From the NCBI RefSeq assembly GCF_014189855.1, contig NZ_BJFN01000002.1:310001-374000 (forward strand): 64,000 nucleotides of DNA, read 5' to 3'. The notes below the pieces were generated by a model, which saw only the letters and a program-made list of their open reading frames with translations, made no database searches and was not told the origin of the DNA. The position numbers and the translations under genes are program-made. Below, piece by piece: positions 8,264 through 48,462 of this stretch (its first letter is position 1; every line of letters begins with the position of its first letter). The stretch is from Buttiauxella sp. A111. GTDB taxonomy: Bacteria > Pseudomonadota > Gammaproteobacteria > Enterobacterales > Enterobacteriaceae.

Positions 8264-8337
8264 TGGAGCGGGTGAAGGGAATCGAACCCTCGTATGCAGC
8301 TTGGGAAGCTGCCGTTCTACCATTGAACTACACCCGC
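8264..8337 (-). tRNA. glyU: tRNA-Gly, anticodon CCC
   Basis: Read on the minus strand the gene begins GCGGGTGTAGTTCAATGGTA and folds into a standard cloverleaf: acceptor stem GCGGGTG, anticodon arm GCAGC-TTCCCAA-GCTGC giving anticodon CCC, T-arm with GGTTCGATTCC, and an encoded 3' CCA (TGG at 8264-8266 on the plus strand). 74 nt including CCA. Its place beside ygeR matches glyU of E. coli. The 3' end faces the accessory fimbria/autotransporter block, the usual orientation for tRNA-linked islands. Confidence 0.97.
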
Positions 8338-14187: not shown

Positions 14188-14904
14188 CTACCCGCCAATA
14201 TTCGTAAGCTGCTGGTGCGCATCCAACATTTGTTTCATCTCTTTCGGCCCCTGATAACCAGGAATCACTGTACCGTTGCTCAGTACGATCGCCGGAGTTC
14301 CCTGGATGCCAAACTGCACGCCAAGATTGTAATGGTTAGCGATATTGGTATCGCAAGTTGCCCCTGCAACGGCATCACCTTTCATGGCGGTATCGAAAGC
14401 TTTATTGCGGTCTTTCGCACACCAGATGGCCTTCATGTCGTTTTCAGTTTGGCTTTGCAGACCCTGGCGCGGGAAGGCCAGGTAACGCACGGTGATCCCA
14501 AGTGCGTTGTAGTCTTTGATCTCTTCGTGCAGCTTATGGCAATAGCCACAGGTGATATCGGTAAATACCGTAATCACATGTTTTTCTTGTGGAGCTTTAT
14601 AGACAATCATCTCTTTTTCGAGCGCGTTCAGTTTACCCACCAGCAGTTTGTTGGTGACATTAACCGGCTGCGCGCCACTGACATCGTACAGTGGCCCCTG
14701 AATAACGTGTTTCCCATCTTCCGTAACGTACAAAACACCGCTATCGGTTAATACCGTTTTCATGCCCGCCACAGGTGCAGACTGAACATCAGCATTTTGT
14801 ACGCCTAACTTAGCCAGAGACTGCTTGATTGCTGCGTCATCTGCATGAGCAAAACCGGACAGAGAAGCCGCTAAAAATGGCAGCAGCCAGAAACGCTTTT
14901 TCAT
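14188..14904 (-). CDS. dsbC: Periplasmic disulfide isomerase DsbC
   Basis: 238 residues with signal peptide (MKKRFWLLPFLAASLSGFAHA). N-terminal dimerisation domain, then a thioredoxin domain with the active site FTDITCGYCHKLHEE (CGYC) and a cis-Pro in GTPAIVLSNG; a second Cys pair (WCAKD, ATCDTN) matches the structural disulfide. It reshuffles wrong disulfides and is kept reduced by DsbD. The frame extends 8 codons further, but the ATG at 14904 has AAGGA 6 bases upstream and matches the E. coli N-terminus. Third member of the xerD operon order. Confidence 0.97.
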   Translation of the reverse strand: MKKRFWLLPFLAASLSGFAHADDAAIKQSLAKLGVQNADVQSAPVAGMKTVLTDSGVLYVTEDGKHVIQGPLYDVSGAQPVNVTNKLLVGKLNALEKEMIVYKAPQEKHVITVFTDITCGYCHKLHEEIKDYNALGITVRYLAFPRQGLQSQTENDMKAIWCAKDRNKAFDTAMKGDAVAGATCDTNIANHYNLGVQFGIQGTPAIVLSNGTVIPGYQGPKEMKQMLDAHQQLTNIGG

Positions 14905-14928
14905 GATGATTCCTTTATCTTCTACCAC

Positions 14929-15837
14929 TCACGCTCGCGGGTGGTGTTGTTGATGCAGCTGACGCAAACGTTCCGTCGCTACATGCGTATAAATTTGGGT
15001 TGTGGACAAGTCACTATGTCCAAGCAACATTTGTACGACTCGCAAATCCGCGCCATGGTTCAGTAAATGCGTGGCAAATGCGTGTCGAAGAACGTGCGGG
15101 GAAAGCTTTTCGCTATCGATGCCTGCCTGCACTGCGTAATGTTTGATGCGGTGCCAGAATGTCTGACGCGTCATTTGTTGGGCGCGATTACTAGGGAAGA
15201 CCACATCAATCGACACACCATTGAGCAACCATGGCCGCCCATGTTCGATGTAGTTTTCCAGCCAGTAAACAGCTTCTTCACCCATCGGCACCAGGCGTTC
15301 TTTATTGCCTTTACCGATGACCCGTACCACGCCCTGACGCAAGCTGACATCACTCATGGTCAGCCCCACTAACTCCGATACGCGCAGACCCGTAGCATAC
15401 AATAATTCGAGCATCGCTTTATCACGCAACTCGATGGGTTGGTCGATACAAGGTGCTTGCAACAAACGATCGACCTGCGCTTCGCTGAGATCTTTTGGCA
15501 AACGCTGCGGCAATTTTGGTGATGAAAGCATTACGCTCGGGTCGTCATCACGCAATTTTTCGCGGTAGATATACTGAAATAATCGACGAATCGCGCTCAG
15601 CATTCGTGCCGAACTTGTCGCTTTATAGCCACCTTCAAGGCGTTCAGCAAACAGCGATTGTAAATCGCTGGTTTGCACATTCAGCAAGTTCAGATCATGG
15701 CGTTCTAGCCACTCCGCGACCATTTTAAGATCCCGGCGATAGGAGTCTAACGTGTTCTGTGCCAGATTCCGCTCAAGCCAGAGCGCATCAAGAAATTGTT
15801 CTATTCGGGCCAGATCTTGTTCCGCTTCTTGTTCCAC
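14929..15837 (-). CDS. xerD: Tyrosine site-specific recombinase XerD
   Basis: 302 residues (E. coli 298). N-terminal core-binding domain and C-terminal catalytic domain with all tyrosine-recombinase residues: Arg in [10 protein letters not shown], Lys in [10 protein letters not shown], His-x-x-Arg in [10 protein letters not shown], His in LLGHSDLS and the nucleophile Tyr in TTQIYTHVA. With XerC it resolves chromosome dimers at dif. Start is GTG at 15837 with GAGG six bases upstream; this adds four residues relative to E. coli. First gene of the operon, divergent from fldB. Confidence 0.97.
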
Positions 15838-15948
15838 TACAGCCTCACTTACCTGCCCAACTTTGGCGAATTGTGTCCATTATGCATGATGCACAACGGG
15901 ATCTGGTACACTTGCGGCCTGCACGTTTTTAAAAGAGTTGTTAATACG

Positions 15949-16470
15949 ATGAACATTGGCCTTTTTTATGGCTCCAGCACTTGTTACACCGAAATGGCTG
16001 CCGAAAAAATTCGTGACATCATTGGCCCCGAACTGGTGACACTGCACAATCTTAAAGATGATGCTCCAGCCATGATGGAACAGTACGATGTGTTGATTCT
16101 CGGCATCCCGACCTGGGATTTTGGCGAATTACAGGAAGACTGGGAAGCCGTCTGGGATCAACTGGATAATCTGAATCTCGAGGGCAAACCGGTAGCGCTT
16201 TATGGCATGGGCGACCAGCTCGGCTATGGCGAATGGTTCCTTGATGCGCTCGGCATGCTGCACGATAAACTCGCCCCACGAGGCGCTCAGTTTATTGGCT
16301 ACTGGCCAACAGAAGGTTATGAATTTACTAGCCCGAAACCTGTCATCGCTGATGGGCAGTTGTTCGTTGGCCTGGCGCTTGATGAAACGAATCAGTACGA
16401 CTTAAGCGAAGAGCGAATCCAAAACTGGTGTGAGCAAATTCTCGCGGAAATGGCCGAGAAATTTGCCTGA
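15949..16470 (+). CDS. fldB: Flavodoxin 2
   Basis: 173 residues, identical in length to E. coli FldB. Starts [15 protein letters not shown]: the SSTCYTE phosphate loop binds FMN. Later FMN-contact loops are [13 protein letters not shown] and [18 protein letters not shown]. It is a low-potential electron carrier; fldB belongs to the SoxRS regulon in E. coli. An in-frame extension upstream to 15796 overlaps xerD and is not supported. Confidence 0.97.
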
Positions 16471-17318: not shown

Positions 17319-17445
17319 ATATCCAAAATAATTCGAGTTGCAGTAAGGCGGCAAATGAGCAAATCTCCAGGAGCTTACTCAAGTAAGTGACTGGGGTTAG
17401 CGAATGCAGACAACGCAACTGCAACTTGAAGTATGACGGATATAT
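17319..17445. repeat. ERIC element 1 (127 bp)
   Basis: Full-length Enterobacterial Repetitive Intergenic Consensus. Ends read ATATCC...GGATAT; the centre contains AAGTAAGTGACTGGGGTTAG, which matches the classic ERIC2 primer site but for one base. Located between divergent sdhE and ygfZ, so it is part of both 5' regions. Confidence 0.95.
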
Positions 17446-19474: not shown

Positions 19475-20203
19475 ATGTTTACTCATGCGGCAGTTGCTAA
19501 TCTCAACGGACTAGAAATGATGGTCTACAACTTTGTCATTAAAAATCGTGACAAAGTAATGTATATGACTATCCGCGAGTTAGCCGATGCAGCGGGTGTG
19601 TCCACCACCACCGTACTGCGTTTCTGCCGCAAGTTGAATTGTGAAGGTTACTCTGAGTTTCGCGTGCGCTTTAAATTATATCTTGAGCAAAACGATGAAC
19701 AACTGGTTAATTTTGGCCCCAGCGAAATTATTAGTTTTTTTAAAAGCACCAACAACGAAGAGTTTGATAATTTAATTGACCAGGCAGTTGATATTATTTG
19801 TTCTTCTGAACGTATTATATTTGTTGGTGCAGGAACATCAGGTGCGTTAGCAAAATATGGTGCACGTTTCTTTTCTAATGTGGGGAAATTTAGTAACCAT
19901 ATTGATGACCCTTATTTCCCGGTCACTAATGATATGGCGAAAAATGCACTGGCCATTGTCCTTTCAGTTTCTGGTGAAACCGAAGAGATCCTGCGCTTCG
20001 CCAGCCAGTTCAGCTTGCATAACTGCAAGGTGCTCTCCATCACCAGCCACGAAAACTCAGCACTGGCAAAGCTTGCCGATTTTAATATCTCCTGGCATAT
20101 TCCCCTCACCCGCGTTGGGGGTGTTTATGACATCACCACGCAAATCCCCGTTATTTATATTTTAGAAACCATTGGTCGTAAACTGGCTAAGAAAATGGCA
20201 TAA
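19475..20203 (+). CDS. MurR/RpiR family regulator (sugar-phosphate responsive)
   Basis: 242 residues. N-terminal HTH_6 domain (~1-75; MTIRELADAAGVSTTTVLRF) and a C-terminal SIS domain (~100-235; IIFVGAGTSGALAKY and SVSGETEEILRFA) that in this family binds phosphosugars. It lies 165 bp upstream of bglA in the same orientation and replaces yqfB, which occupies this spot in E. coli. It is likely a regulator of bglA responding to a phospho-beta-glucoside or glucose-6-phosphate; inference from adjacency only. A short stem AAAACAG-GC-TGTTTT follows its stop. Confidence 0.85.
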   Translation: MFTHAAVANLNGLEMMVYNFVIKNRDKVMYMTIRELADAAGVSTTTVLRFCRKLNCEGYSEFRVRFKLYLEQNDEQLVNFGPSEIISFFKSTNNEEFDNLIDQAVDIICSSERIIFVGAGTSGALAKYGARFFSNVGKFSNHIDDPYFPVTNDMAKNALAIVLSVSGETEEILRFASQFSLHNCKVLSITSHENSALAKLADFNISWHIPLTRVGGVYDITTQIPVIYILETIGRKLAKKMA

Positions 20204-20226
20204 AAAAACAGGCTGTTTTTTACGTG

Positions 20227-20255
20227 TAACAAATCACATTAACGGTGATTTGTTA
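20227..20255. promoter_or_regulatory. Inverted repeat upstream of bglA, candidate operator
   Basis: TAACAAATCAC (20227-20237) and GTGATTTGTTA (20245-20255) are exact inverted 11-mers separated by 7 bases. Located between the RpiR-type regulator and bglA; a plausible binding site for that regulator. Confidence 0.5.
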
Positions 20256-20317
20256 TATCGTGACAATTAAATCTCATTTGTTAGACTCCAGTTCAGAGAT
20301 TATTAACTTAACGCTAA

Positions 20318-21802
<1,485 letters not shown>

Positions 21803-21811
21803 TTTTCCCAG

Positions 21812-21840
21812 GGGCACTGCGGTGCCCTTCCTCCTTTTTA
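21812..21840 (+). terminator. bglA terminator
   Basis: GGGCAC (21812-21817) pairs with GTGCCC (21822-21827) over a TGCG loop, followed by TTCCTCCTTTTT. Confidence 0.8.
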
Positions 21841-21962
21841 CCCATCATACTTCAAGCTGCATGTGCGTTGGCTGCACTCACTCACCCGAATCACTTACTA
21901 CAGTAAGCTCATCGGGATTCTTTCGCTTGCCGCCTTCCTGCAACTCGAATTATTTTGGGTAT
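21839..21962. repeat. ERIC element 2 (124 bp)
   Basis: Ends TACCCATCATACTTCAAGCT and ATTATTTTGGGTAT with the central ACTTACTACAGTAAGCT palindrome. It begins in the T-tract of the bglA terminator and ends 157 bp before the peroxidase gene. Confidence 0.93.
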
Positions 21963-22119
21963 CTGATTGGCAAAAGCTATTTAAACGATAGCCCAAACCG
22001 GCCATTTTCATTGATAGCCCGCAAGAAGCGCCCCCCTCTATTTGGTCATGATGCAACCGCTGGACAGTATGGTTTCTATTCAAACGCAAGCCGTTGATAC
22101 CTCTGACAAGGAAGCATTC

Positions 22120-23511
22120 ATGAAAAAAATAACAAAACTGGCCGGACTGGCGGTTGGCGCTGGAGTGGTCTGTTATCTGGCCCTGGCGGGCTACGTCCGC
22201 TATCACGACGCTCACCGCCCCAACACCGCGCTGGCAAAAAGCGGCCTCTCTGCTGAAAATGCTAACGTGTTGAAAATATTGCAGGATAAGGGCTGCGACT
22301 ACTGTCATACCCCTTCCGCGCAATTACCCTTTTATGCCTCTTTTCCCATCGCTAAACAGTTGATGGAATACGATATTGAGCTTGGTTATAAATCATTTAA
22401 CCTGGTGGAAGTACGGGAAAGCCTGCTTGAGGGCAAAGCGGCGCCACAAAGCGACCTCACTAAAATCGAATGGGTGATGGAGCACAAAACCATGCCGCCA
22501 GGCCGGTATAACGCGTTGCACTGGGCAGGTATCATGGATGAATCTGAGCGCAACGTTTTGCTCGACTGGGTTGAACACCAGCGCCTGAATTACTACGCCA
22601 CGCCTGATATGGCAGAAAATCGCCGTAACGAGCCGGTACAGCCGATTCCAGAATCCCTGCCGGTCGATGCGCAAAAAGTCGCGTTAGGGATGCGGCTTTA
22701 TCACGACCCACGTCTTTCAGGTGATAATTCTATTTCCTGCGCGCATTGCCACCAGTTGGGTGCCGGTGGCGTGGACGGGCGTAAGACATCTCAGGGCGTA
22801 GGCGGGGCCATCGGGCCGATTAACGCCCCAACCGTTTACAACTCCGTGTTTAATGTCGAGCAGTTCTGGGATGGACGAGCCGCCGATCTTCAGGCGCAGG
22901 CAGGAGGGCCGCCGCTTAATCCAATCGAAATGGCCTCGACATCCTGGAAACAAATCACCGATAAGCTGGAAAAAGATCCTGTCCTGATGCGCGATTTCAC
23001 CGCCGTCTATCCGCAAGGGCTGTCTGGCGCGTCGATAACCGATGCTATTGCTGAGTTCGAAAAAACACTGATTACGCCAGACTCGCCTTTCGATCAGTAT
23101 TTACGAGGGAATGACGGCGCGATAACCGCGCAGCAAAAACACGGGTATCAGCTGTTTAAAGAAAATAAATGCGCCACCTGCCACACTGGGAAAACGTTAG
23201 GGAGTCGCTCGTTTGAGCCGCTGGGGCTGAAAGAAGATTTCGGTTTTGGTACCGTCACAAGCGCAGACATCGGGCGAATGAATGTCACCAAAGAGGTGCG
23301 CGACAGGTTGCGCCAGAAAGTACCAACACTGCGCAACGTGGCACTGACCGCACCTTACTTCCATCGTGGTGACGTGGCGACGCTGGATGATGCAGTGAAA
23401 GAGATGCTGAAATACCAGGTCGGCACGACGTTACCGCAAAAAGATGTCGATGATATCGTCGCGTTCTTGCAAACGTTGAATGGGGTCTATACCCCTTATC
23501 CGATCCATTAA
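22120..23511 (+). CDS. yhjA: Tri-haem cytochrome c peroxidase (YhjA type)
   Basis: 463 residues. N-terminal signal-anchor helix (LAGLAVGAGVVCYLALAGYV) and three CxxCH haem motifs: CDYCH near 58, CAHCH near 206 and CATCH near 350. The extra N-terminal haem domain distinguishes YhjA from classic di-haem CcpA and receives electrons from quinol. It reduces H2O2 in the periplasm under oxygen limitation. Start at 22120 with AAGGAAG upstream. In E. coli yhjA is elsewhere and is controlled by FNR and OxyR; here only a weak FNR half-site (TTGAT at 22011-22015) is seen. It sits beside a two-component system and a molybdoenzyme set, suggesting an oxidative-stress locus. Confidence 0.93.
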   Translation: MKKITKLAGLAVGAGVVCYLALAGYVRYHDAHRPNTALAKSGLSAENANVLKILQDKGCDYCHTPSAQLPFYASFPIAKQLMEYDIELGYKSFNLVEVRESLLEGKAAPQSDLTKIEWVMEHKTMPPGRYNALHWAGIMDESERNVLLDWVEHQRLNYYATPDMAENRRNEPVQPIPESLPVDAQKVALGMRLYHDPRLSGDNSISCAHCHQLGAGGVDGRKTSQGVGGAIGPINAPTVYNSVFNVEQFWDGRAADLQAQAGGPPLNPIEMASTSWKQITDKLEKDPVLMRDFTAVYPQGLSGASITDAIAEFEKTLITPDSPFDQYLRGNDGAITAQQKHGYQLFKENKCATCHTGKTLGSRSFEPLGLKEDFGFGTVTSADIGRMNVTKEVRDRLRQKVPTLRNVALTAPYFHRGDVATLDDAVKEMLKYQVGTTLPQKDVDDIVAFLQTLNGVYTPYPIH

Positions 23512-23557
23512 TCTGCCCATTCGCCGAGAAAACACCGTTTCCCGGCAAACGGTGTTT

Positions 23558-25024
23558 TCATGTCGGCAACGCGAAACGGAAACAGGCCCCGGTTTCTGGT
23601 CTTTCTACCAGCGAGATATCACTGCCGTGTAACTGCAACATCTGGCGCACAATCATTAGCCCTAAACCCCCGACTCTCACATGCGACTGGTTCACAATCG
23701 AAGGGCGCACAAACAATCCCTCTTTCAGCTCTTGTGGGATCCCCGGCCCGCTATCGCTTATCTGCACCATCACTTTTTCAGCCTCTTTCCACAACCGTAC
23801 TGCAACAGTACCTTGCTCTGGCGTATGACGAATGGCGTTATCCAGCAGGTTGGTGAGTACGCGTTCAATCATCCCTAAATCGGCGTCAATCAATGGCAAG
23901 CCCGGCTGAATATCGGCCACTAATTGTAATTTCCGCGTTTGCGTCATCAGTTCGAATTTCTGAAAAACGTCCTGCAATAATTCTCCGAGGCAGAAATGTT
24001 CTTTCTGCGGTTTCACTACGCCATATTCAAGACGGGCTAATTCAAACAATGATTGTGCAAGTGTGCGGACTTTCTGGCTCTGCGCTAACGCGATTTCCAG
24101 ATAGCGTTTTTTCTCCGCGTCAGAAAGCGTAGATGACATCACGGATAAGCTTTCCAGGTAGCCATGCAGCGAGGTTAACGGCGTGCGTAAATCATGGGAG
24201 ATATTGGCAATAAACTCGCGGCGGAGTTGGTCTTGTTGCGAAAGCCGGTGCCACTGTTCCGAAATCCGTCGCGCCATCATGATCACGCCCTGGCGCAACA
24301 GGCTTATCTCATCGTGACTGTGCCCTTTTTCCAGCGGCAACTCGGCCATCGCTTTCATCTCCGTCATGCCGCCGGTTTCCAGCGCATTAACCTGATGTGA
24401 AAGCGCACGCAGCGGACGGGTAATCCAGCGAAATGCCAGCGCACCGACAACCAGCCCAAGCAATGCAACCAGGCTAATAGAGAGCAAAACGACTTTAAAC
24501 AGCGTGTTAGATTGCGCATCACTGGCTAGCACATTGTAATTTTCACCCAGCAAAATGACATACAAGTAGCCTTTAACCTGCCCGTTTTGCCGCATCGGGG
24601 CCACGCTAAACACCTTTTTGCCATCCATACTGCGCGGATCGTCACCGTAGATCGGATACTGACGATCGTTTAGCGCAGATTGGATCGGTTCCAAATCAAC
24701 GCGATGACGTTTGATATGGTCAGGCGGTGCGGCGTCACCAATGATATTGCCTTTATCATCAAGTAGATAAACCTCAACGCTTGGGTTTACCGTCATCAGA
24801 TGATCAAACAGGTTTCGCACAGAGTCATTATTCAGACCGTCTTGCCCAAGCAGCGGGTAGCTCTGGTTAATATGCTCGGCAAGAGAGCCTGAAAGTTGTT
24901 GAATCACCGCCTGGCTGTACTGGGTGCTGGTGCGAATTTGCAGCCACCCCAGCAGAGAGCAAGAAGTAATAAGCAGCAACGCAAAAACCAGAGTCAGGCG
25001 CTGTGAAAGAGAGAGTTTTCGCAT
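23558..25024 (-). CDS. Sensor histidine kinase (HAMP, HisKA, HATPase)
   Basis: 488 residues. Two membrane helices (~10-28 and ~176-198) enclose a ~145-residue periplasmic domain (PSVEVYLLDDKGNIIG, sCache/PAS-like in pattern). A HAMP linker leads to the H-box FIANISHDLRTPLTSLHGYL with the phospho-accepting His, then N-box NLLDNAIRHTP, G1 DSGPGIP and G2 GLGLMIV. It starts 3 bp after the response-regulator stop, so the pair is coupled. The genes beside it (peroxidase, cytochrome b, molybdoenzyme, Met-rich protein) suggest it senses a periplasmic oxidant. E. coli HprS, which controls msrPQ, is a functional parallel, not a proven orthologue. Confidence 0.88.
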   Translation of the reverse strand: MRKLSLSQRLTLVFALLLITSCSLLGWLQIRTSTQYSQAVIQQLSGSLAEHINQSYPLLGQDGLNNDSVRNLFDHLMTVNPSVEVYLLDDKGNIIGDAAPPDHIKRHRVDLEPIQSALNDRQYPIYGDDPRSMDGKKVFSVAPMRQNGQVKGYLYVILLGENYNVLASDAQSNTLFKVVLLSISLVALLGLVVGALAFRWITRPLRALSHQVNALETGGMTEMKAMAELPLEKGHSHDEISLLRQGVIMMARRISEQWHRLSQQDQLRREFIANISHDLRTPLTSLHGYLESLSVMSSTLSDAEKKRYLEIALAQSQKVRTLAQSLFELARLEYGVVKPQKEHFCLGELLQDVFQKFELMTQTRKLQLVADIQPGLPLIDADLGMIERVLTNLLDNAIRHTPEQGTVAVRLWKEAEKVMVQISDSGPGIPQELKEGLFVRPSIVNQSHVRVGGLGLMIVRQMLQLHGSDISLVERPETGACFRFALPT

Positions 25025-25027
25025 GGT

Positions 25028-25738
25028 TTACTCGTTTCGCGGTGCGATGAATTTATACCCTTTTCCCCACACCGTAAGAATGAATTCAGGCTCTGCGGGG
25101 TTGTCTTCAATCTTGATGCGTAACCGGTTGATGTGGGTATTAACCGTGTGTTCATAACCTTCGTGTTGATATCCCCAAACCTGATTAAGCAGGTTGAGCC
25201 GGGAAAACACCTTGCCCGGGTTTTTAGCAAAGAACCACAGCAGGTCAAACTCGCGTGGCGTCAGCTCAACGGGCTGTTGTCTGAGGCGCACATCGCGGGC
25301 CAGAGGGTCGATAGTCAACCTTTCAAACGTGAGAGTTCCCGCATCCTGCAACAGGTTCTGGCTCATCGCCTCCTGGCGGCGGAAAAGCGCTTTGACGCGA
25401 GCCACCAATTCCAGCATTGAGAAGGGTTTCGCCAGGTAATCATCGGCGCCCAGTTCCAGCCCCAAAACCCGATGAGTTTCACTGGAGCGGGCACTGATCA
25501 TGACGATCGGCGTATAACGCGTCATGGTGCGCGCATGGCGACAGATTTCCAGGCCATCGACGCCTGGCAGCATCAGATCCAGTATCAGCGCATCCCAACC
25601 GCCCTGCTTGAGCAGTTCGAGTCCCAGAGAGCCATCTGCCGCATGAACAATTTCATAGCCTTCTTCTCGCAAATGCAGCTGCAAGAGTTCAGCAATATTT
25701 TCGTCATCCTCAACAATTAATAACTTTTTGGGCTTCAT
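25028..25738 (-). CDS. OmpR-family response regulator
   Basis: 236 residues. Receiver domain with acidic pocket (LIVEDDEN), phospho-acceptor Asp in LILDLMLPGVDG, conserved Thr/Ser region MISARSS and Lys in YLAKPFSMLEL; then a winged-helix effector with LTPREFDLLWFFAKNPGKVFS and VWGKGYKFIAP. The start is ATG 25738; a GTG one codon upstream is possible, with AAGG about 8 bases ahead. Divergent from the cytochrome b gene with ~142 bp between the start codons, so it probably controls that promoter. Confidence 0.93.
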   Translation of the reverse strand: MKPKKLLIVEDDENIAELLQLHLREEGYEIVHAADGSLGLELLKQGGWDALILDLMLPGVDGLEICRHARTMTRYTPIVMISARSSETHRVLGLELGADDYLAKPFSMLELVARVKALFRRQEAMSQNLLQDAGTLTFERLTIDPLARDVRLRQQPVELTPREFDLLWFFAKNPGKVFSRLNLLNQVWGYQHEGYEHTVNTHINRLRIKIEDNPAEPEFILTVWGKGYKFIAPRNE

Positions 25739-25880
25739 CACTTCGCCTTTTATCCACCAGTTACTGGAAGTCTATACAACATTCGTCGGTCGAGTTATCA
25801 CATTTAATTTAACTTTTCGTGAGGCTTTGGAGAACAGATTTAGAGCACACTCATTTCAACGCAATAACGGATATAAAACG

Positions 25881-26492
25881 ATGGATACGCCAACGTTTCA
25901 GATTAAACCCGCCACAATCCATCCATTGTGGCTGAGGATTTGCCACTGGTTGAACGCCTTCGCCATACTCATCATGGTGACCAGCGGGTGGCGGATTTAT
26001 AACGCTTCACCGCTGTTTAATTTCAGTTTCCCAAATGAGTTAACGCTCGGTGGTTGGCTGGGCGGTGCGTTGCAGTGGCATTTTGCCGGGATGTGGCTGT
26101 TTGGTATTAACGGCGTGCTTTACCTGCTGATCAATATTTTTAGCGGCCGCCTGAAACGCAAATTTTGGCCTCTGTCGCCACGAGAGTTGATCAATGATTT
26201 TATCGCCGCGCTGCGGGGGAAACTGGCTCATAACGATCTCAGTCATTACAACACGGTACAGAAATTGGCGTATCTGTTTGTCATGATCGACGGGATCATT
26301 CTGGTTTGCTCCGGTCTTGTGGTATGGAAATCAGTACAGTTTCCGCTGTTACGGGAATTATTCGGCGGGTATGACATGGCGCGCTTCATTCATTTTTATG
26401 CCATGTCCGGGATGGTCGGATTTGTTGTCGTTCATCTCATTATGGTGGCGCTGGTTCCTCGAACTTTACTCGCTATGCTGCGTGGGCGATAA
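25881..26492 (+). CDS. Cytochrome b561/YedZ1-like membrane haem protein
   Basis: 203 residues, four predicted membrane helices with haem-ligand candidates: His in RICHWLNAF (helix 1), His in LQWHFAGMW (helix 2) and two in MARFIHFYAM and FVVVHLIMV (helix 4). This is the Ni/Fe-hydrogenase-type cytochrome b family, which passes quinol electrons to a periplasmic partner. The partner gene starts 9 bp downstream. It is not homologous to MsrQ (YedZ) in helix count but corresponds in role to YedZ1 of the Azospira mrpX locus. The start at MDTPTFQIKP was chosen because upstream codons overlap the regulator promoter. Confidence 0.88.
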   Translation: MDTPTFQIKPATIHPLWLRICHWLNAFAILIMVTSGWRIYNASPLFNFSFPNELTLGGWLGGALQWHFAGMWLFGINGVLYLLINIFSGRLKRKFWPLSPRELINDFIAALRGKLAHNDLSHYNTVQKLAYLFVMIDGIILVCSGLVVWKSVQFPLLRELFGGYDMARFIHFYAMSGMVGFVVVHLIMVALVPRTLLAMLRGR

Positions 26493-26501
26493 GGGAAAAA
26501 C

Positions 26502-27290
26502 ATGAACAATAAAAATAAGATTTTTTCTGATGCCGATAAAAACGCGATCATTCAGGATGCGACTCAGCAAATTAATAAACAGTTATCGTCTGAAGGACGT
26601 CGTCGTTTTTTAAAGCAAGGTTTAACACTCGGCGGATTAATAATGCTCACGGGCTGCGATATTAGCAGCAATGAATCGGTAGAAAATACCTTAAGTCGGA
26701 TATCACGATTTAATGACCGAATTCAGGGCTGGTTATTTAATGCCAACGACCTGGCTCCAGTTTACCCCGAAAGCATGATGACGCGTCCGTTTCCTTTTAA
26801 TGCTTTTTATAGTGAGGATGAAGCGCCCAATATAAAAGGTGACGATTATCGTCTGGAGGTTGCGGGACTGGTATCGGATAAACGCCCATGGACACTGGCG
26901 CAACTGCATCAAATGGCCCAGGTCAGCCAGGTGACACGCCATATCTGCGTGGAAGGCTGGAGTGCCATTGGCAAATGGGGCGGCGTGCCGTTTTCCCTTT
27001 TTCTAAAAGCGATCGGTGCCGATTTGAATGCCCGTTACGTTAGCTTCAAATGTGCTGATGATTACTACACCAGTATTGATATGGCAACCGCGCTGCATCC
27101 ACAAACCATTATTGCGCTGACTTACGACGGCCAAATATTGCCTCGTAAATATGGTTTCCCGATGAAGTTAAGAATGCCAACCAAATTGGGTTATAAAAAT
27201 CCAAAGCATATTTTAGTTATCGAAGTCACGAACCGCTATCCCGGAGGTTATTGGGAGGATCAGGGGTATAACTGGTTCGGCGGAAGTTAA
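26502..27290 (+). CDS. Tat-exported molybdopterin oxidoreductase (YedY1/MsrP-like)
   Basis: 262 residues of the sulfite-oxidase fold family. Twin-arginine signal GRRRFLKQGLTLGGLIML followed by LTGC|DIS: a lipobox with Asp at +2, which would make it a Tat lipoprotein held at the inner membrane beside its cytochrome. The molybdenum-ligand Cys lies in RHICVEGWSAIG (~residue 149), followed by the family pattern KWGGVPFSLFL and KYGFPMKLRMP. Related enzymes reduce methionine sulfoxide (MsrP) and YedY1 of Azospira does so for a Met-rich peptide. Substrate here is inferred from the neighbouring MXKDX gene. Requires Mo-cofactor synthesis outside the window. Confidence 0.88.
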   Translation: MNNKNKIFSDADKNAIIQDATQQINKQLSSEGRRRFLKQGLTLGGLIMLTGCDISSNESVENTLSRISRFNDRIQGWLFNANDLAPVYPESMMTRPFPFNAFYSEDEAPNIKGDDYRLEVAGLVSDKRPWTLAQLHQMAQVSQVTRHICVEGWSAIGKWGGVPFSLFLKAIGADLNARYVSFKCADDYYTSIDMATALHPQTIIALTYDGQILPRKYGFPMKLRMPTKLGYKNPKHILVIEVTNRYPGGYWEDQGYNWFGGS

Positions 27291-27292
27291 CC

Positions 27293-27418
27293 TATACCCG
27301 TCATACTTCAAGTTGCATCTTTGTTGGCTTTCCTCGCTCACCCCGGTCACTTACTTAAGTAAGCTCCAGGGGATTCACTGCGTCGCCGCCTCAATGCAAC
27401 TCGAATTATTTTTGGTAT
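27293..27418. repeat. ERIC element 3 (126 bp)
   Basis: Ends TATACCCGTCATACTTCAAG and AATTATTTTTGGTAT with central ACTTACTTAAGTAAGCTCC. It starts 3 bp after the molybdoenzyme stop and separates it from the Met-rich repeat gene, so the transcript would carry a long hairpin. A TACAAT hexamer at 27420-27425 abuts its right end. Confidence 0.95.
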
Positions 27419-27455
27419 CTACAATGTTATTAATAAAACGACGAGGAAATAAAAA

Positions 27456-27746
27456 ATGAAAAAACTCTACACTGCTCTGATGTGCTCGGCTTTATTCTTT
27501 GGTGCCGCAGGAGCAAATGCTGCCGATAATATGGCGAAAGACAATATGGCTAAAGATAATATGGGGAAAATGTCCCATGACTGTTCTAAAGACAGTATGA
27601 AAAAAGACTGTATGACTAAAGATGAAATGAAGAAAGATTCAATGTCTAAGGATCATATGTCTAAAGACGGCATGGCGAAGGACCATATGTCCAAAGATAA
27701 TATGTCCAAAGATGGTATGGCTAAAGACGAGATGGGTAAAAAATAA
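27456..27746 (+). CDS. Methionine-rich MXKDX pentapeptide-repeat periplasmic protein (MrpX-like)
   Basis: 96 residues: signal peptide ending GANA, then ~74 mature residues almost entirely of tandem five-residue units MxKDx (MAKDN, MTKDE, MKKDS, MSKDH, MSKDG). The mature part has 14 Met (about 19 percent), many Lys and Asp, and two Cys. GAGGAAAT precedes the start. MrpX in Azospira has the same repeat and acts as a sacrificial methionine pool that absorbs hypochlorite and is re-reduced by YedY1. The adjacent Tat molybdoenzyme and cytochrome b fit the same role here. Metal binding (Met/His/Asp-rich) is the alternative. Confidence 0.9.
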   Translation: MKKLYTALMCSALFFGAAGANAADNMAKDNMAKDNMGKMSHDCSKDSMKKDCMTKDEMKKDSMSKDHMSKDGMAKDHMSKDNMSKDGMAKDEMGKK

Positions 27747-27767
27747 CAGTCGCGCTGACACCAGGAT

Positions 27768-27809
27768 AATGGCCGTTCGTCTGCACTTTCAGGCGAACGG
27801 CCATTTTTT
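27768..27809. terminator. Shared terminator between mrpX-like gene and ygfF
   Basis: AATGGCCGTTCG (27768-27779) pairs with CGAACGGCCATT (27794-27805) and runs into TTTTTT. The ygfF stop codon is at its right edge, so the convergent genes share it. Confidence 0.9.
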
Positions 27810-28551
27810 ATTTGCCGCCCGCCAAGTCGAGGAAACTGCCCGTCACATACGAGGCTTTATCGCTTAGCAGCCAGACGATGGCCTGCGCGACTTCCTCAGG
27901 CTGACCACCACGCTTCATAGGTAGCAAATCTTTTACGCGATCGACTCGCCCCGCTTCCCCGCCAGATGCATGCATGTCGGTGTAAATAAAGCCTGGACGC
28001 ACGCCATTGACGCGAATGCCCTGCGCCGCCACTTCCACAGAAAGCCCGGTTGTCAGCGTATCCACCGCTCCTTTTGACGCGGCATAATCCACATATTCAC
28101 CTGGTGAACCTAAGCGCGCAGCCGCCGATGAAACGTTAACAATCGCCCCGCCTTTCCCGCCGTGGCGAATCGCCATACGTTTTACCGCTTCACGGCAACA
28201 GAGAAAGTAACCCGTAACGTTAGTGGCCATAACACGATTAATACGTTCAGCCGTGAGTTCTTCGATGGTGGATTGTTGGAACAGGATCCCGGCGTTATTG
28301 ACCAGAGCGGTAATCGGGCCGAAGGCGTTGTCGATTTCCACGAACATCGCCATCACTTGCAGTTCATCAGCAATATCCGCTTTGATGGCAATCGCCTCTC
28401 CACCGGCTCCCCGAATGGCATTCACCACTTCGTCGGCCGCAGGTTTATCGCGTTGATAGTTTACAACCACTTTGTAACCAGCCTGCGCCAGCAGTAACGA
28501 GGTTGCTTTACCAATCCCACGGCTTCCGCCGGTTACCAGAACCACGCCCAT
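27808..28551 (-). CDS. ygfF: Short-chain dehydrogenase YgfF
   Basis: 247 residues, same as E. coli YgfF. Classical SDR: nucleotide loop TGGSRGIG at the N-terminus, NNAG in VNNAGILFQ, catalytic Ser in VNVSSAAARLG and YxxxK in YVDYAASKGA. It presumably oxidises or reduces a sugar-like alcohol with NAD(P); the substrate is not known. Convergent with the mrpX-like gene and downstream of gcvP behind a terminator. Confidence 0.94.
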   Translation of the reverse strand: MGVVLVTGGSRGIGKATSLLLAQAGYKVVVNYQRDKPAADEVVNAIRGAGGEAIAIKADIADELQVMAMFVEIDNAFGPITALVNNAGILFQQSTIEELTAERINRVMATNVTGYFLCCREAVKRMAIRHGGKGGAIVNVSSAAARLGSPGEYVDYAASKGAVDTLTTGLSVEVAAQGIRVNGVRPGFIYTDMHASGGEAGRVDRVKDLLPMKRGGQPEEVAQAIVWLLSDKASYVTGSFLDLAGGK

Positions 28552-28573
28552 CTCAACCTCCTGATTAACAGAT

Positions 28574-28600
28574 AAAAAAAGGGCACCGAAGTGCCCTTAG
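28574..28600 (-). terminator. gcv operon terminator
   Basis: GGGCAC-CGAA-GTGCCC (28581-28596) with a T-run on the minus strand (AAAAAAA at 28574-28580 on plus). Read on the minus strand the loop is UUCG. It lies 26 bp after the gcvP stop. Confidence 0.92.
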
Positions 28601-28622
28601 GAAGATATCACGCAAATCTCAA

Positions 28623-31496
28623 TTACTGATATTCGCTCATCGGCACGCAAGAACAGAACAGATTACGGTCACCGAACACATCGTCAAGGCGCTTCACGGT
28701 CGGCCAGTATTTGTTGCCATGGCCTGTCGGGAACACTGCCAGTTCGCGAGTGTATGGATGTCCCCAATCAGCCACGATTTCGTCCTGTGTGTGCGGAGCA
28801 TTAACCAGCGGGTTATCTTCCAGTGGCCATTCACCACGTGCAACACGGTCGATTTCTGTGCGGATAGTCAGCATCGCATCGATAAAACGATCCAGTTCCA
28901 GTTTGCTTTCGGATTCGGTTGGTTCAACCATCAACGTACCCGCAACCGGGAACGACATGGTTGGCGCATGGAAACCGAAGTCAATCAGTCGCTTAGCGAT
29001 ATCCAGTTCACTAATACCGGTTTCTTCTTTCAGTGGGCGAATGTCGAGAATACATTCGTGCGCCACATGTCCACTACGGCCGGTATAGAGGATCGGGAAA
29101 GCCGACTTCAGGCGCGTTGCAATATAGTTAGCATTCAGGATAGCCACCTGACTTGCCTTCTTCAGCCCCTGCGCGCCCATCATTCGGATATACATCCAGC
29201 TAATTGGCAGAATGGAAGCACTACCAAACGGTGCTGCAGAAACAGCGCCCTGTTGAGTCAACATCTCTTCAATCTGCACCACGCTGTGGCCTGGCACGAA
29301 CGGAGCCAGGTGTGCTTTCACGCCGATAGGTCCCATACCTGGGCCGCCGCCGCCGTGTGGAATGCAGAAGGTTTTATGCAGGTTAAGGTGCGAAACATCC
29401 GCGCCGATGTAGCCTGGAGAGGTGATCCCCACCTGAGCGTTCATGTTCGCGCCATCCAGGTAAACCTGGCCGCCGAACTGATGAACGATCTGGCAGACTT
29501 CGCGGATCGTCTCTTCATACACACCGTGAGTTGACGGATAGGTCACCATGATGCAGGACAGTGCATCACCCGCTTGCTCAGCTTTTTCACGCAGATCGTG
29601 CAGATCAATGTTGCCTTGTTTATCACAAGCTACGACCACGACTTCCATGCCTGCCATTTGGGCGGACGCAGGGTTAGTACCGTGTGCGGAACTTGGGATC
29701 AGGCAAAGGTTACGGCTGCCTTCGTTACGGCTTTCGTGATAACGACGAATAGCCAGCAGGCCTGCGTATTCACCTTGCGCGCCAGAGTTTGGCTGCATGC
29801 AAAGCGCATCGTAACCCGTCAGTTTCACCAGCCAGTCAGAGAGTTGGGAGATCATCTGGTGATAACCTTCCGCCTGATTTGCCGGGCAGAACGGATGCAG
29901 CTCAGCGAATTCCGGCCAGGTGATAGGAATCATTTCAGCCGCAGCGTTTAACTTCATGGTGCAAGAACCCAGCGGGATCATCGCCTGGTTCAGCGCCAGA
30001 TCTTTGCGCTCAAGTGAGTGCATGTAGCGCATCATTTCGGTTTCGCTGTGGTAGCGATTAAATACCGGATGCGTCAGGAATTCGTCTTCACGCAGCATCG
30101 CTTTTGGGATCGACAGGCTATCGCCCGCCACGTTTTGGTCGAGCTTATCAATGTCCAGACCGTGGTTGTCACCCAGCAGCACGCTAAACAGTGCCTGTAC
30201 ATCTTCACGCGTGGTCGCTTCATCCAGCGTGATACCAACCGCGTTCAGAATGTCGCTGCGCAAGTTGATTTCATTCGCTTCAGCACGTGCCAGCACGGCG
30301 GCTTTATCGGTTACTTCAACACACAGGGTGTCGAACCAATGTTTGTGACGCAGCACCAAACCTTTTTGTTGCAGGCCAGCGGCCAGAACATCGGTCAAAC
30401 GATGAATGCGCCCTGCAATGCGTTTCAGGCCAGCCGGGCCGTGGAATACCGCATACAGGCTGGCAATGTTTGCCAGCAGAACCTGGGAAGTACAAATGTT
30501 GGAGTTCGCTTTTTCGCGGCGGATATGTTGCTCGCGAGTTTGCATCGCCATGCGCAGCGCAGTACGTCCCGCAGCATCGCGTGATACACCGATAATACGG
30601 CCAGGCATGGAGCGTTTGAATTCATCACGTGCGGCAAAGAATGCAGCATGTGGGCCACCGTAACCCATTGGCACGCCAAAACGCTGTGCGGAACCAAATA
30701 CGATGTCAGCACCTTGTTTGCCAGGTGCAGTTAACAGAACCAACGTCATTAAGTCAGCGGCAACACTCACGATGACCTTGCGTTGTTTCAGTTCGGTAAT
30801 CAGAGCGCTGTAGTCATGAACGTCGCCGGTGGTGCCAACTTGTTGGAGCAGCACACCAAACACATCCTGATGATCCAGCACTTTCGCGGCGTCATCGACA
30901 ATCACATCAAAGCCGAAGGTTTCAGCACGCGTGCGGACAACATCCAGCGTTTGCGGATGTACGTCAGCTGCAACAAAGAAACGGTTAGCGTTTTTCAGTT
31001 TGCTGACACGCTTTGCCATTGCCATGGCTTCTGCGGCAGCGGTCGCTTCGTCCAGCAAAGAAGCCGATGCGATATCCAGCCCCGTCAAATCCAGCGTCAC
31101 TTGTTGGAAGTTGAGCAGCGCTTCGAGACGGCCTTGTGATACTTCTGGCTGATACGGCGTGTATGCCGTGTACCAACCTGGATTTTCCAGCATATTACGC
31201 AGAATAACCGGCGGCGTTTGTACCGCGGTGTAACCCATGCCGATATACGTTTTAAAACGCTTATTACGGCTGGCAATGGTCTTTAATTCAGCCAGGGCCG
31301 CGAATTCGGTAGCAGCCTCACCCACCTGTGGTGGCTCAGCAAGCTGGATATCAGCAGGAACGATAGAGGCTATCAATTCATTCAACGAACGAGCGCCCAC
31401 TGTTTCCAGCATTTCATGTTGCTGTTGTGCGTTCGGTCCAATGTGACGGTCGACAAACGCTTCGTGATTTTCAAGCTGACGTAAAGACTGGGTCAT
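28623..31496 (-). CDS. gcvP: Glycine dehydrogenase (decarboxylating), P protein
   Basis: 957 residues, identical in length to E. coli GcvP. The PLP lysine is in [16 protein letters not shown] (~residue 710), followed by the glycine-rich loop. It decarboxylates glycine and passes aminomethyl to the lipoyl arm of GcvH. Last gene of gcvTHP; the 131-bp gap before it is unusually long and is filled by CT-rich palindromes, so its expression relative to gcvTH may be modulated. Confidence 0.98.
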
Positions 31497-38438: not shown

Positions 38439-38622
38439 ATTTCTCTGAGATGTTTGCATGCGGGCCAGTCCCCTGAGCCGATATTTCATACCACAAGAAT
38501 GTGGTGCTCCAGATTCTGTGAGCATGCTCGGTCCGTCCGAGAAGCCTGATGATTCTGACGCTGCATTCACCTTGAACCAAGGGTTCAAGGGTTACAGCCT
38601 GCGGCGGCATCTCGGAGATTCC
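38439..38622 (+). ncRNA. ssrS: 6S RNA
   Basis: 184 nt from ATTTCTCTGAGATGTTTGCA to CGGAGATTCC. The two ends pair (TCTCTGAGATG with CATCTCGGAGA) and the central CCTTGAACCAAGGGTTCAAG arm is kept, forming the long open-bubble hairpin that mimics a melted promoter and sequesters sigma70 RNA polymerase in stationary phase. Position between zapA and fau as in E. coli; co-transcription with fau gives the processed form. Confidence 0.97.
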
Positions 38623-48334: not shown

Positions 48335-48462
48335 ATATACCCGAAATAATTCGAGTTGCATTGAGGCGGCAAGTGAGTGAATCCCGCTGAGCTTACTCAA
48401 GTAAGTGATGCGGGTGAATGAACGCAGCCAACAAAGATGCAACTTGAAGTATGACGGGTATA
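48335..48462. repeat. ERIC element 4 (128 bp), tdcD-tdcE gap
   Basis: Full-length: TATACCCGAAATAATTCGAG at the left, GACGGGTATA at the right, with the core CTTACTCAAGTAAG. Its right end abuts the tdcD stop codon (48463). Confidence 0.95.

Follow-up and report, generated by a model that had tools for sequence, protein, structure and literature searches.

The window considered here, a stretch of 64,000 nucleotides from contig NZ_BJFN01000002.1 of Buttiauxella sp. A111 (a genome of 4.89 Mb in 37 contigs), contains six open genes between the end of the bglA open reading frame at 21802 and ygfF at 27808-28551, in the place where an earlier reading, made from the letters of the DNA (the sequence-only reading), had put them. 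Our subject is the set of five of these genes that encodes a sensor histidine kinase (HK) and an OmpR-family response regulator (RR) on one strand and, divergently from them, a cytochrome b561-type membrane subunit (cytb), a sulfite-oxidase-fold molybdoenzyme and a secreted methionine-rich protein of the MXKDX repeat type on the other, with an operator of the OrhR type in the intergenic region. The sixth gene encodes a tri-haem peroxidase (Table 1).

Table 1. Features of the window between bglA and ygfF
Feature	Position	Strand	Basis or remark
YhjA/Ccp-type tri-haem peroxidase	22120-23511	+	CCP_MauG and Haem_bd, three CxxCH
Sensor histidine kinase (HK), OrhK orthologue	23558-25024	-	HisKA/HATPase; 47% identity to CFT073 OrhK
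OmpR-family response regulator (RR), OrhR orthologue	25028-25738	-	66.5% identity to CFT073 OrhR; common clade
OrhR-type operator TCACATTTAATTTAACTTTTCGTGA (TCACA-N15-CGTGA), conserved	25798-25822	+	Divergent promoter region
Cytochrome b561-type membrane subunit (cytb), c3566 orthologue	25881-26492	+	PF01292
Sulfite-oxidase-fold molybdoenzyme, c3567 orthologue	26502-27290	+	Oxidored_molyb PF00174, twin-arginine signal
ERIC-like repeat between molybdoenzyme and MXKDX genes	27295-27420	+	Repeat alignment with the copy at about 21839-21964
Secreted methionine-rich MXKDX repeat protein, c3568/MrpX type	27456-27746	+	TIGR02953

Identity with the OrhK/OrhR system

To judge by its sequences, the module in the window is the orthologue of a system already in print, OrhK/OrhR-c3566-c3568 of uropathogenic Escherichia coli (UPEC) CFT073, in which OrhK and OrhR are C3564 and C3565 (Gu et al. 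2021, PMC8550376; this and the other papers are cited from the passages available). The sequence-only reading had considered the configuration undescribed, a claim that gives way to the account of OrhK/OrhR-c3566-c3567-c3568 in that paper. The orthology is drawn from protein identities, from the common clade of the regulators and from the matching operator. Identity to the CFT073 proteins is 61% for the molybdoenzyme, beside the values for HK and RR in Table 1, and identity to the copy on plasmid p666 of enterotoxigenic E. coli is 50% for HK, 67% for RR and 64% for both the molybdoenzyme and cytb. A tree of 88 RRs places the window RR together with OrhR in a clade of 26 rows (support 100/99) from which all 20 control RRs are absent, the bootstrap having stopped slightly short of settling (0.989, against the 0.99 wanted). 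The window RR scores below the NCBIfam cut-off for HprR (162.9 against 353 bits). The loci of the window and of CFT073 share the five genes, their order, the divergent layout, the methionine-rich third gene and the operator; they differ in that the window copy lies between bglA and ygfF and has no haemolysin genes downstream, in that an ERIC-like repeat stands before its MXKDX gene, and in that its cytb is open whereas that of CFT073 is flagged as frameshifted in RefSeq. The paper gives c3566 a phenotype although it carries this flag, and intact copies exist elsewhere.

OrhKR is reported to activate c3566-c3568 upon exposure to tert-butyl hydroperoxide and in macrophages, and OrhR to bind the c3566-c3568 promoter region, in which the -35 box is preceded by the inverted repeat TCACA-N15-TGTGA (PMC8550376). 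The same paper describes peroxide phenotypes for mutants in the kinase, the regulator, cytb and the molybdoenzyme, terms c3568 an MrpX homologue, and calls c3566-c3567 a methionine sulfoxide reductase (Msr) on the strength of 23-28% identity to MsrQ and MsrP. OrhKR is also covered by a review (PMC12846084); these two sources aside, no further account of the module was found in the passages available from the open-access literature.

A conserved and mobile module

From a sample of 246 genomes of the window's family, all listed strong relatives of the molybdoenzyme outside the window (58 loci) were taken, and two MsrP loci in addition. Clade 1 comprises 33 loci, two of them in the window genome (the window locus and a second copy) and the rest from 31 further genomes of this family. 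The genes for cytb, molybdoenzyme and MXKDX protein are consecutive in all 33, and those for HK and RR adjoin them divergently in 29. The neighbourhood search that the sequence-only reading had proposed thus bears out five genes of its six-gene island as a conserved module within the family, and removes the peroxidase from it (beside the module in two of the 33 loci). Seven of the modules are sited between bglA and ygfF, and the nearest named relatives of the window molybdoenzyme belong to Buttiauxella izardii (94%), B. brennerae (93%) and B. noackiae (91%).

Matches to the RR-cytb-molybdoenzyme stretch, partial or whole, are present in 351 of 5426 E. coli genomes, 69 of them over at least 80% of the stretch, and the places of these matches are chromosomal in 289 instances and plasmid-borne in 75. 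RR matches at E < 1e-80 occur on 89 of 72,556 plasmids, of which 53 come from Escherichia and one shows less than 60% identity. Because the E. coli matches occupy both chromosomal and plasmid places and these 89 plasmids carry RR matches, we conclude that the module is mobile.

The second copy of cytb-molybdoenzyme-MXKDX in the window genome (G000:C9, approximately 14235-16076; L034:8536-10377; molybdoenzyme 74% identical) has no adjacent two-component system (TCS). An ERIC-like repeat precedes its MXKDX gene, which is followed by a small periplasmic-looking frame that we take to be DUF1471-like.

The operator

The operator in the window differs by one base, in the second arm, from that published for CFT073 and agrees with it in place and spacing. 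All 29 RR-cytb intergenic regions of clade 1 contain TCAC-N17-GTGA within a conserved block, with which the promoter blocks of CFT073 and p666 align. A scan of contigs for named loci gave at least 80, the regulator gene being adjacent in 40 (39 of them also with a kinase match) and non-adjacent in 40, of which 34 belong to Pseudomonas among the matches listed. Again among the matches listed, the longer form TCACN4WWTTTAAN6GTGA stands upstream of cytb in 38/40 regulator-adjacent and 34/40 non-adjacent loci, and TCAC-N17-GTGA in 39/40 and 34/40, respectively; in control windows of 450 bases each, the longer form was met in 0/1110 and 0/1140 and the shorter in 8/1110 and 4/1140.

Candidates for a wider regulon in the window genome were not retained. 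A 27-base motif, at up to three mismatches, matched only the site at 25798-25822; a looser operator motif, at up to one mismatch, gave 10 forward and 8 reverse matches (reversed control, 6 and 4), and a further exact match among them, at C3:432784, was judged to be due to chance.

Neighbourhoods of the regulator in other genomes

Of the 40 non-adjacent genomes, 28 were searched (8, then 20), and 25 of these proved to encode an OrhR orthologue elsewhere, at 69-73% identity (8/8 and 17/20); the next best RR in the first eight reached 37-44%. The operator lies at cytb in 23 of the 25 genomes that have OrhR elsewhere, against none of the three that are without it (L181, L184 and L211), and TCAC-N17-GTGA is also present beside the trans-encoded regulator, in 6/8 of the first set and 17/17 of the second. 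The orthologue adjoins Msr genes in 24 of the 25 genomes, namely MsrB/MsrA genes in 23 (16 of which showed a DsbD-like thioredoxin fusion as well) and MsrPQ genes in one Citrobacter, while the genome with neither type is an Edwardsiella. Family models were run on one example each of the MsrB/MsrA and MsrPQ neighbours, and these examples reach the family cut-offs for peptide or protein methionine sulfoxide reductases. Control RRs from the first eight genomes, at 37-43% identity, have Msr neighbours in 0/20 cases. OrhR, cytb-molybdoenzyme-MetX and MsrB-MsrA occur in one cluster in Achromobacter (L178, L183, L185, L194, L212 and L213). A class-wide sample of 369 genomes yielded 62, besides that of the window, with a strong RR match, and among the 40 fetched, mostly the best ranked, the two RRs at 65-68% adjoin MsrA-DsbD-like-MsrB. 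Separate cases of the link with Msr are thus provided by Pseudomonas, Achromobacter, the family of L267/L268 and Citrobacter.

The periplasmic-type MsrB/DsbD-like/MsrA operons of Pseudomonas adjoin OrhR orthologues and share the operator with the window module; they differ from it in encoding thiol-based enzymes without molybdenum, and none was found beside the window module. No account of the link between OrhR and MsrAB was found in the passages available from the open-access literature, which lacks most subscription papers. In four further loci (L124:6226-9900, L125, L289 and L296), methionine-rich frames stand beside RR/HK pairs (RR 53-56%) with no molybdoenzyme, with MsrB near all four pairs and MsrA also in L124, L289 and L296; these may be another variation on the same theme.

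The molybdoenzyme and its cytochrome

The nearest solved folds of the structure model of the molybdoenzyme (mean pLDDT 74) are those of E. coli MsrP (1xdq and 1xdy), with 22-26% identity in the fold alignments. Cys149 is invariant, aligns with the Cys of the CVEAWS stretch in 1xdq, and is the predicted molybdenum ligand, the equivalent Cys being one that we take to bind molybdenum. The window molybdoenzyme is further predicted to be a lipoprotein exported by the twin-arginine translocation (Tat) pathway (RRRFLKQGLTLGGLIMLTGC, with Asp at +2). Among 113 clade-1 frames, to which some genomes contribute twice, 111 have a twin-arginine motif followed by a lipobox; the two others are one locus fetched twice, in which LTGC is kept and RC takes the place of the arginine pair. 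The lipobox Cys is followed by Asp in 63, by Asn in 31, by Ser or Thr in 16 and by Phe in one. Asp at +2 retains enterobacterial lipoproteins in the inner membrane, and MsrP is soluble. Because the twin-arginine motif and lipobox are conserved and Asp stands at +2, the molybdoenzyme is predicted to be membrane-tethered, unlike MsrP, and such anchoring, which sets the two enzymes apart, suggests how the molybdoenzyme stays near its cytochrome. In cytb, six His residues are conserved in at least 137 of 139 aligned rows, and its matches are to PF01292 only, with none to MsrQ.

In E. coli, MsrPQ is under the two-component control of HprSR (PMC10151825). That system and the window module have in common the sulfite-oxidase fold, the predicted Cys ligand, Tat export, a haem-containing membrane partner and control by a TCS; the window module differs in the subfamily of its molybdoenzyme, in having cytochrome b561 for MsrQ, in the predicted lipoprotein and in an RR that stays below the HprR cut-off. 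The window genome also holds MsrP- and MsrQ-like genes of its own. Since the tree of molybdoenzymes does not resolve its backbone (7 of 35 inner branches starred), we claim no history of transfer.

The sensor domain and the MXKDX protein

The periplasmic sensor domain of HK (approximately residues 31-176, 24497-24934) was modelled as a PAS/PDC-like fold (pLDDT 81), for which a fold search returned weak PAS/PDC-like matches only (best PDB E 1e-3). In an alignment of 60 distinct sequences among 67 fetched, together with those of CFT073 and p666 (some genomes entering twice), Met77 is invariant in 69/69 rows and no Cys is conserved, the sensor part having no Cys at all in 55/69 rows; a methionine-based sensor is possible.

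The MXKDX protein scores 90.8 bits on TIGR02953, for which the cut-off is 41. It contains 16 Met, 14 of which follow the signal, in agreement with the 14-Met periplasmic peptide of the sequence-only reading, and two Cys in the repeat region. Among 37 MXKDX proteins, the number of Cys after the signal is exactly two in 26, none in 11 and never one. A class-wide search found a match in 15 of 369 genomes, three of which, including the window genome, are above the cut-off.

The same core under other regulators

In two loci, L119 and L122, the core recurs (cytb 61-64%, molybdoenzyme 66-68%) with a methionine-rich frame, beside an extracytoplasmic function (ECF) sigma factor and NrsF (PF06532, 236 bits in L119), whereas no NrsF match was obtained at window positions 20001-30000. 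MrpX-YedY1-YedZ1 of Azospira suillum is controlled by SigF/NrsF (PMC4623255, PMC8315932), and bcrXQP of Brucella by BcrS/AbcS (PMC8315932). As described there, these systems resemble the window module in combining a methionine-rich MXKDX peptide, a sulfite-oxidase-fold molybdoenzyme and a haem-containing membrane partner, and differ from it in being controlled by an ECF sigma and anti-sigma factor instead of a TCS; the likeness is one of description. The resemblance to the Azospira genes on which the sequence-only reading had remarked gains weight from L119 and L122, where the core at 61-68% identity is found beside SigF-like and NrsF proteins.

A second clade of 25 loci, at 54-62% identity, has cytb and the molybdoenzyme without an MXKDX gene. 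Eight loci were listed gene by gene, seven from the second clade plus L091, which is more distant; in at least six of them the pair is preceded by a protein with GTVPPM or a similar sequence at its end, and RR and HK frames lie opposite in at least five. In L067 the opposite RR belongs to the heavy-metal family cztR_silR_copR (330 against 279 bits). The pairs of this clade are those of L066-L090 (e.g., L067:5474-9717) and represent a parallel arrangement; the protein that precedes them is about 208 residues long and, in L067, matches DUF5666 weakly. A distant version belongs to another family within the class: L120:5588-10030 contains a methionine-rich peptide (TIGR02953, 44.9 bits) with cytb at 28% and the molybdoenzyme at 34%, and the OmpR-type RR encoded divergently from them falls outside the OrhR clade; a frame nearby is presumably katG-like.

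Proposed function and alternative readings

From the conservation of the module, its orthology with OrhKR, the operator, the Msr neighbours of the regulator and the fold of the molybdoenzyme, we regard with reasonable confidence the locus as a chromosomal OrhKR-type module that would repair methionine sulfoxide in the periplasm, with the peroxidase as an accidental neighbour. HK would sense a periplasmic oxidant, or the damage done by it, through its PAS/PDC-like domain, and the phosphorylated RR would bind TCACA-N15-CGTGA in the divergent promoter and activate cytb-molybdoenzyme-MXKDX, promoter binding and activation having been demonstrated for OrhR of CFT073 (PMC8550376). The many Met side chains of the MXKDX peptide may serve as a sacrificial sink for oxidants, by analogy with MrpX, while the molybdoenzyme, once exported by Tat, would be anchored as a lipoprotein in the inner membrane next to cytochrome b561, receive electrons from quinol by way of the cytochrome and reduce methionine sulfoxide both in this peptide and in other proteins of the periplasm. 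The sequence-only reading had placed a methionine-rich peptide and a molybdoenzyme with its cytochrome under a dedicated TCS for periplasmic oxidant defence. That view is supported, and the neighbourhoods of the regulator would sharpen it to methionine-sulfoxide repair, a function suggested because OrhR orthologues adjoin Msr genes in other bacteria; OrhKR accordingly appears to be a general regulator of methionine-sulfoxide repair in the periplasm.

Taken together, it seems likely that OrhKR is at heart not a virulence regulator of uropathogens but a widely conserved master switch that governs the repair of methionine sulfoxide in the periplasm of Enterobacterales, Pseudomonas and Burkholderiales, in which one operator commands unrelated systems: the lipoprotein molybdoenzyme with its sacrificial methionine-rich peptide, the periplasmic-type MsrB/DsbD-like/MsrA set and, in at least one genome, MsrPQ. 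The cassette would have been captured by plasmids and by no fewer than two regulatory systems besides OrhKR (SigF/NrsF, and a CopR-type regulator in the form of a cytb-molybdoenzyme pair with a different partner protein), and the link with haemolysin in E. coli would be a late addition. What is new here is the comparative evidence for function, the published OrhKR having been tied to one pathotype; the neighbours of the OrhR orthologues constitute independent evidence for an Msr function in several bacterial groups and predict a testable regulon.

Several observations weigh against these interpretations. The molybdoenzyme falls below the NCBIfam cut-off for MsrP (82.1 against 207 bits, the genuine MsrP of L249 scoring 498.8) and is separated from MsrP by a very long branch in the tree; the available passages of PMC8550376 report no activity data for it, and repair activity in the window is a prediction. 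The same passages give no separate phenotype for the methionine-rich peptide and no test with hypochlorous acid, and RefSeq flags c3566 of CFT073 (L096:2430-3028) as frameshifted in both assemblies. As regards control, four of the 29 enterobacterial intergenic regions deviate from the TTTAA form that the other 25 have (all keep TCAC-N17-GTGA), L164 is without the operator, the Edwardsiella regulator (L248/L200) has neither Msr neighbours nor an operator, and the L034 copy lacks a TCS and shows no operator in the upstream sequence inspected. The trans cases are mostly from Pseudomonas, so that the counts are not independent, and the class-wide RRs at 52-58% have Msr neighbours in only 5/38, for which reason the claim of Msr neighbours is limited to the OrhR clade.

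An alternative, which we consider unlikely, is that the locus defends the envelope against copper or other metals, the Met, His and Cys residues of the MXKDX peptide binding Cu(I) or Ag(I) and the cytochrome and molybdoenzyme reducing a substrate linked to metal stress. The occurrence of two Cys or none, and never one, in the MXKDX proteins would suit such a role, as would the position of the second-clade pair of L067 opposite its cztR_silR_copR regulator; the window RR, however, lies outside that family (173.9 against 279 bits), its orthologues adjoin MsrAB or MsrPQ in 24 of 25 trans loci, no metal exporter was recognised by eye beside the regulator in the eight of these trans loci that were listed gene by gene, and the inducer published for OrhKR is peroxide (PMC8550376). 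Still less probable is that the molybdoenzyme reduces some other S- or N-oxide or an oxyanion (free methionine sulfoxide, chlorate or chlorite) while the MXKDX peptide merely scavenges; the low identity to MsrP in the fold alignments, the failure of the MsrP model and the different family of the cytochrome from MsrQ would all be in keeping with this, but the same regulator and operator serve MsrA/MsrB and MsrPQ elsewhere, in examples that reach the family cut-offs. Methionine-sulfoxide repair under OrhKR control remains the reading that we prefer for the five genes.

The neighbouring peroxidase

The peroxidase has the features of the YhjA/Ccp type, namely Haem_bd and CCP_MauG domains, three CxxCH motifs and a near full-length match to a solved relative (residues 46-460 to 9qdt_A, 'probable cytochrome c peroxidase', E 1.4e-211). 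In eight genomes searched for it, it was not found at E <= 1e-50 in five (G019, G165, G065, G071 and G192), two of which belong to the same genus as the window, and in G168 it is sited away from the module. The 319 bases upstream of the gene contain no operator of the OrhR type; an FNR-like site in this region was dropped, its best version having two mismatches, a level reached in 124 of 1000 shuffles. The peroxidase is an accidental neighbour and no part of the module, because it stands at the module in only 2/33 clade-1 loci, was not found in five of the eight genomes and has no operator upstream, and the joining of H2O2 reduction to the module in the sequence-only reading has to be given up. 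That the peroxidase, TCS, molybdoenzyme and MXKDX protein form a single island acting jointly on H2O2 and reactive chlorine is accordingly very improbable, even though the peroxidase directly adjoins the module both in the window and in G188, a genome of another genus, where it is 79% identical and occupies the same site.

Repeats and other features of the window

The repeats at 21839-21964 and 27295-27420, which we call ERIC-like on the assumption that they are of that kind, are identical in 101 of 127 alignment columns. The latter is an insertion in the operon that splits off the MXKDX gene and is no functional part of the module. The two copies flank the stretch from the peroxidase to the molybdoenzyme, and two further matches to the ERIC-like core lie near 17390 and near 48408. 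Elsewhere in the window, 6S RNA is located at 38439-38622 and a tRNA gene at 8267-8337.

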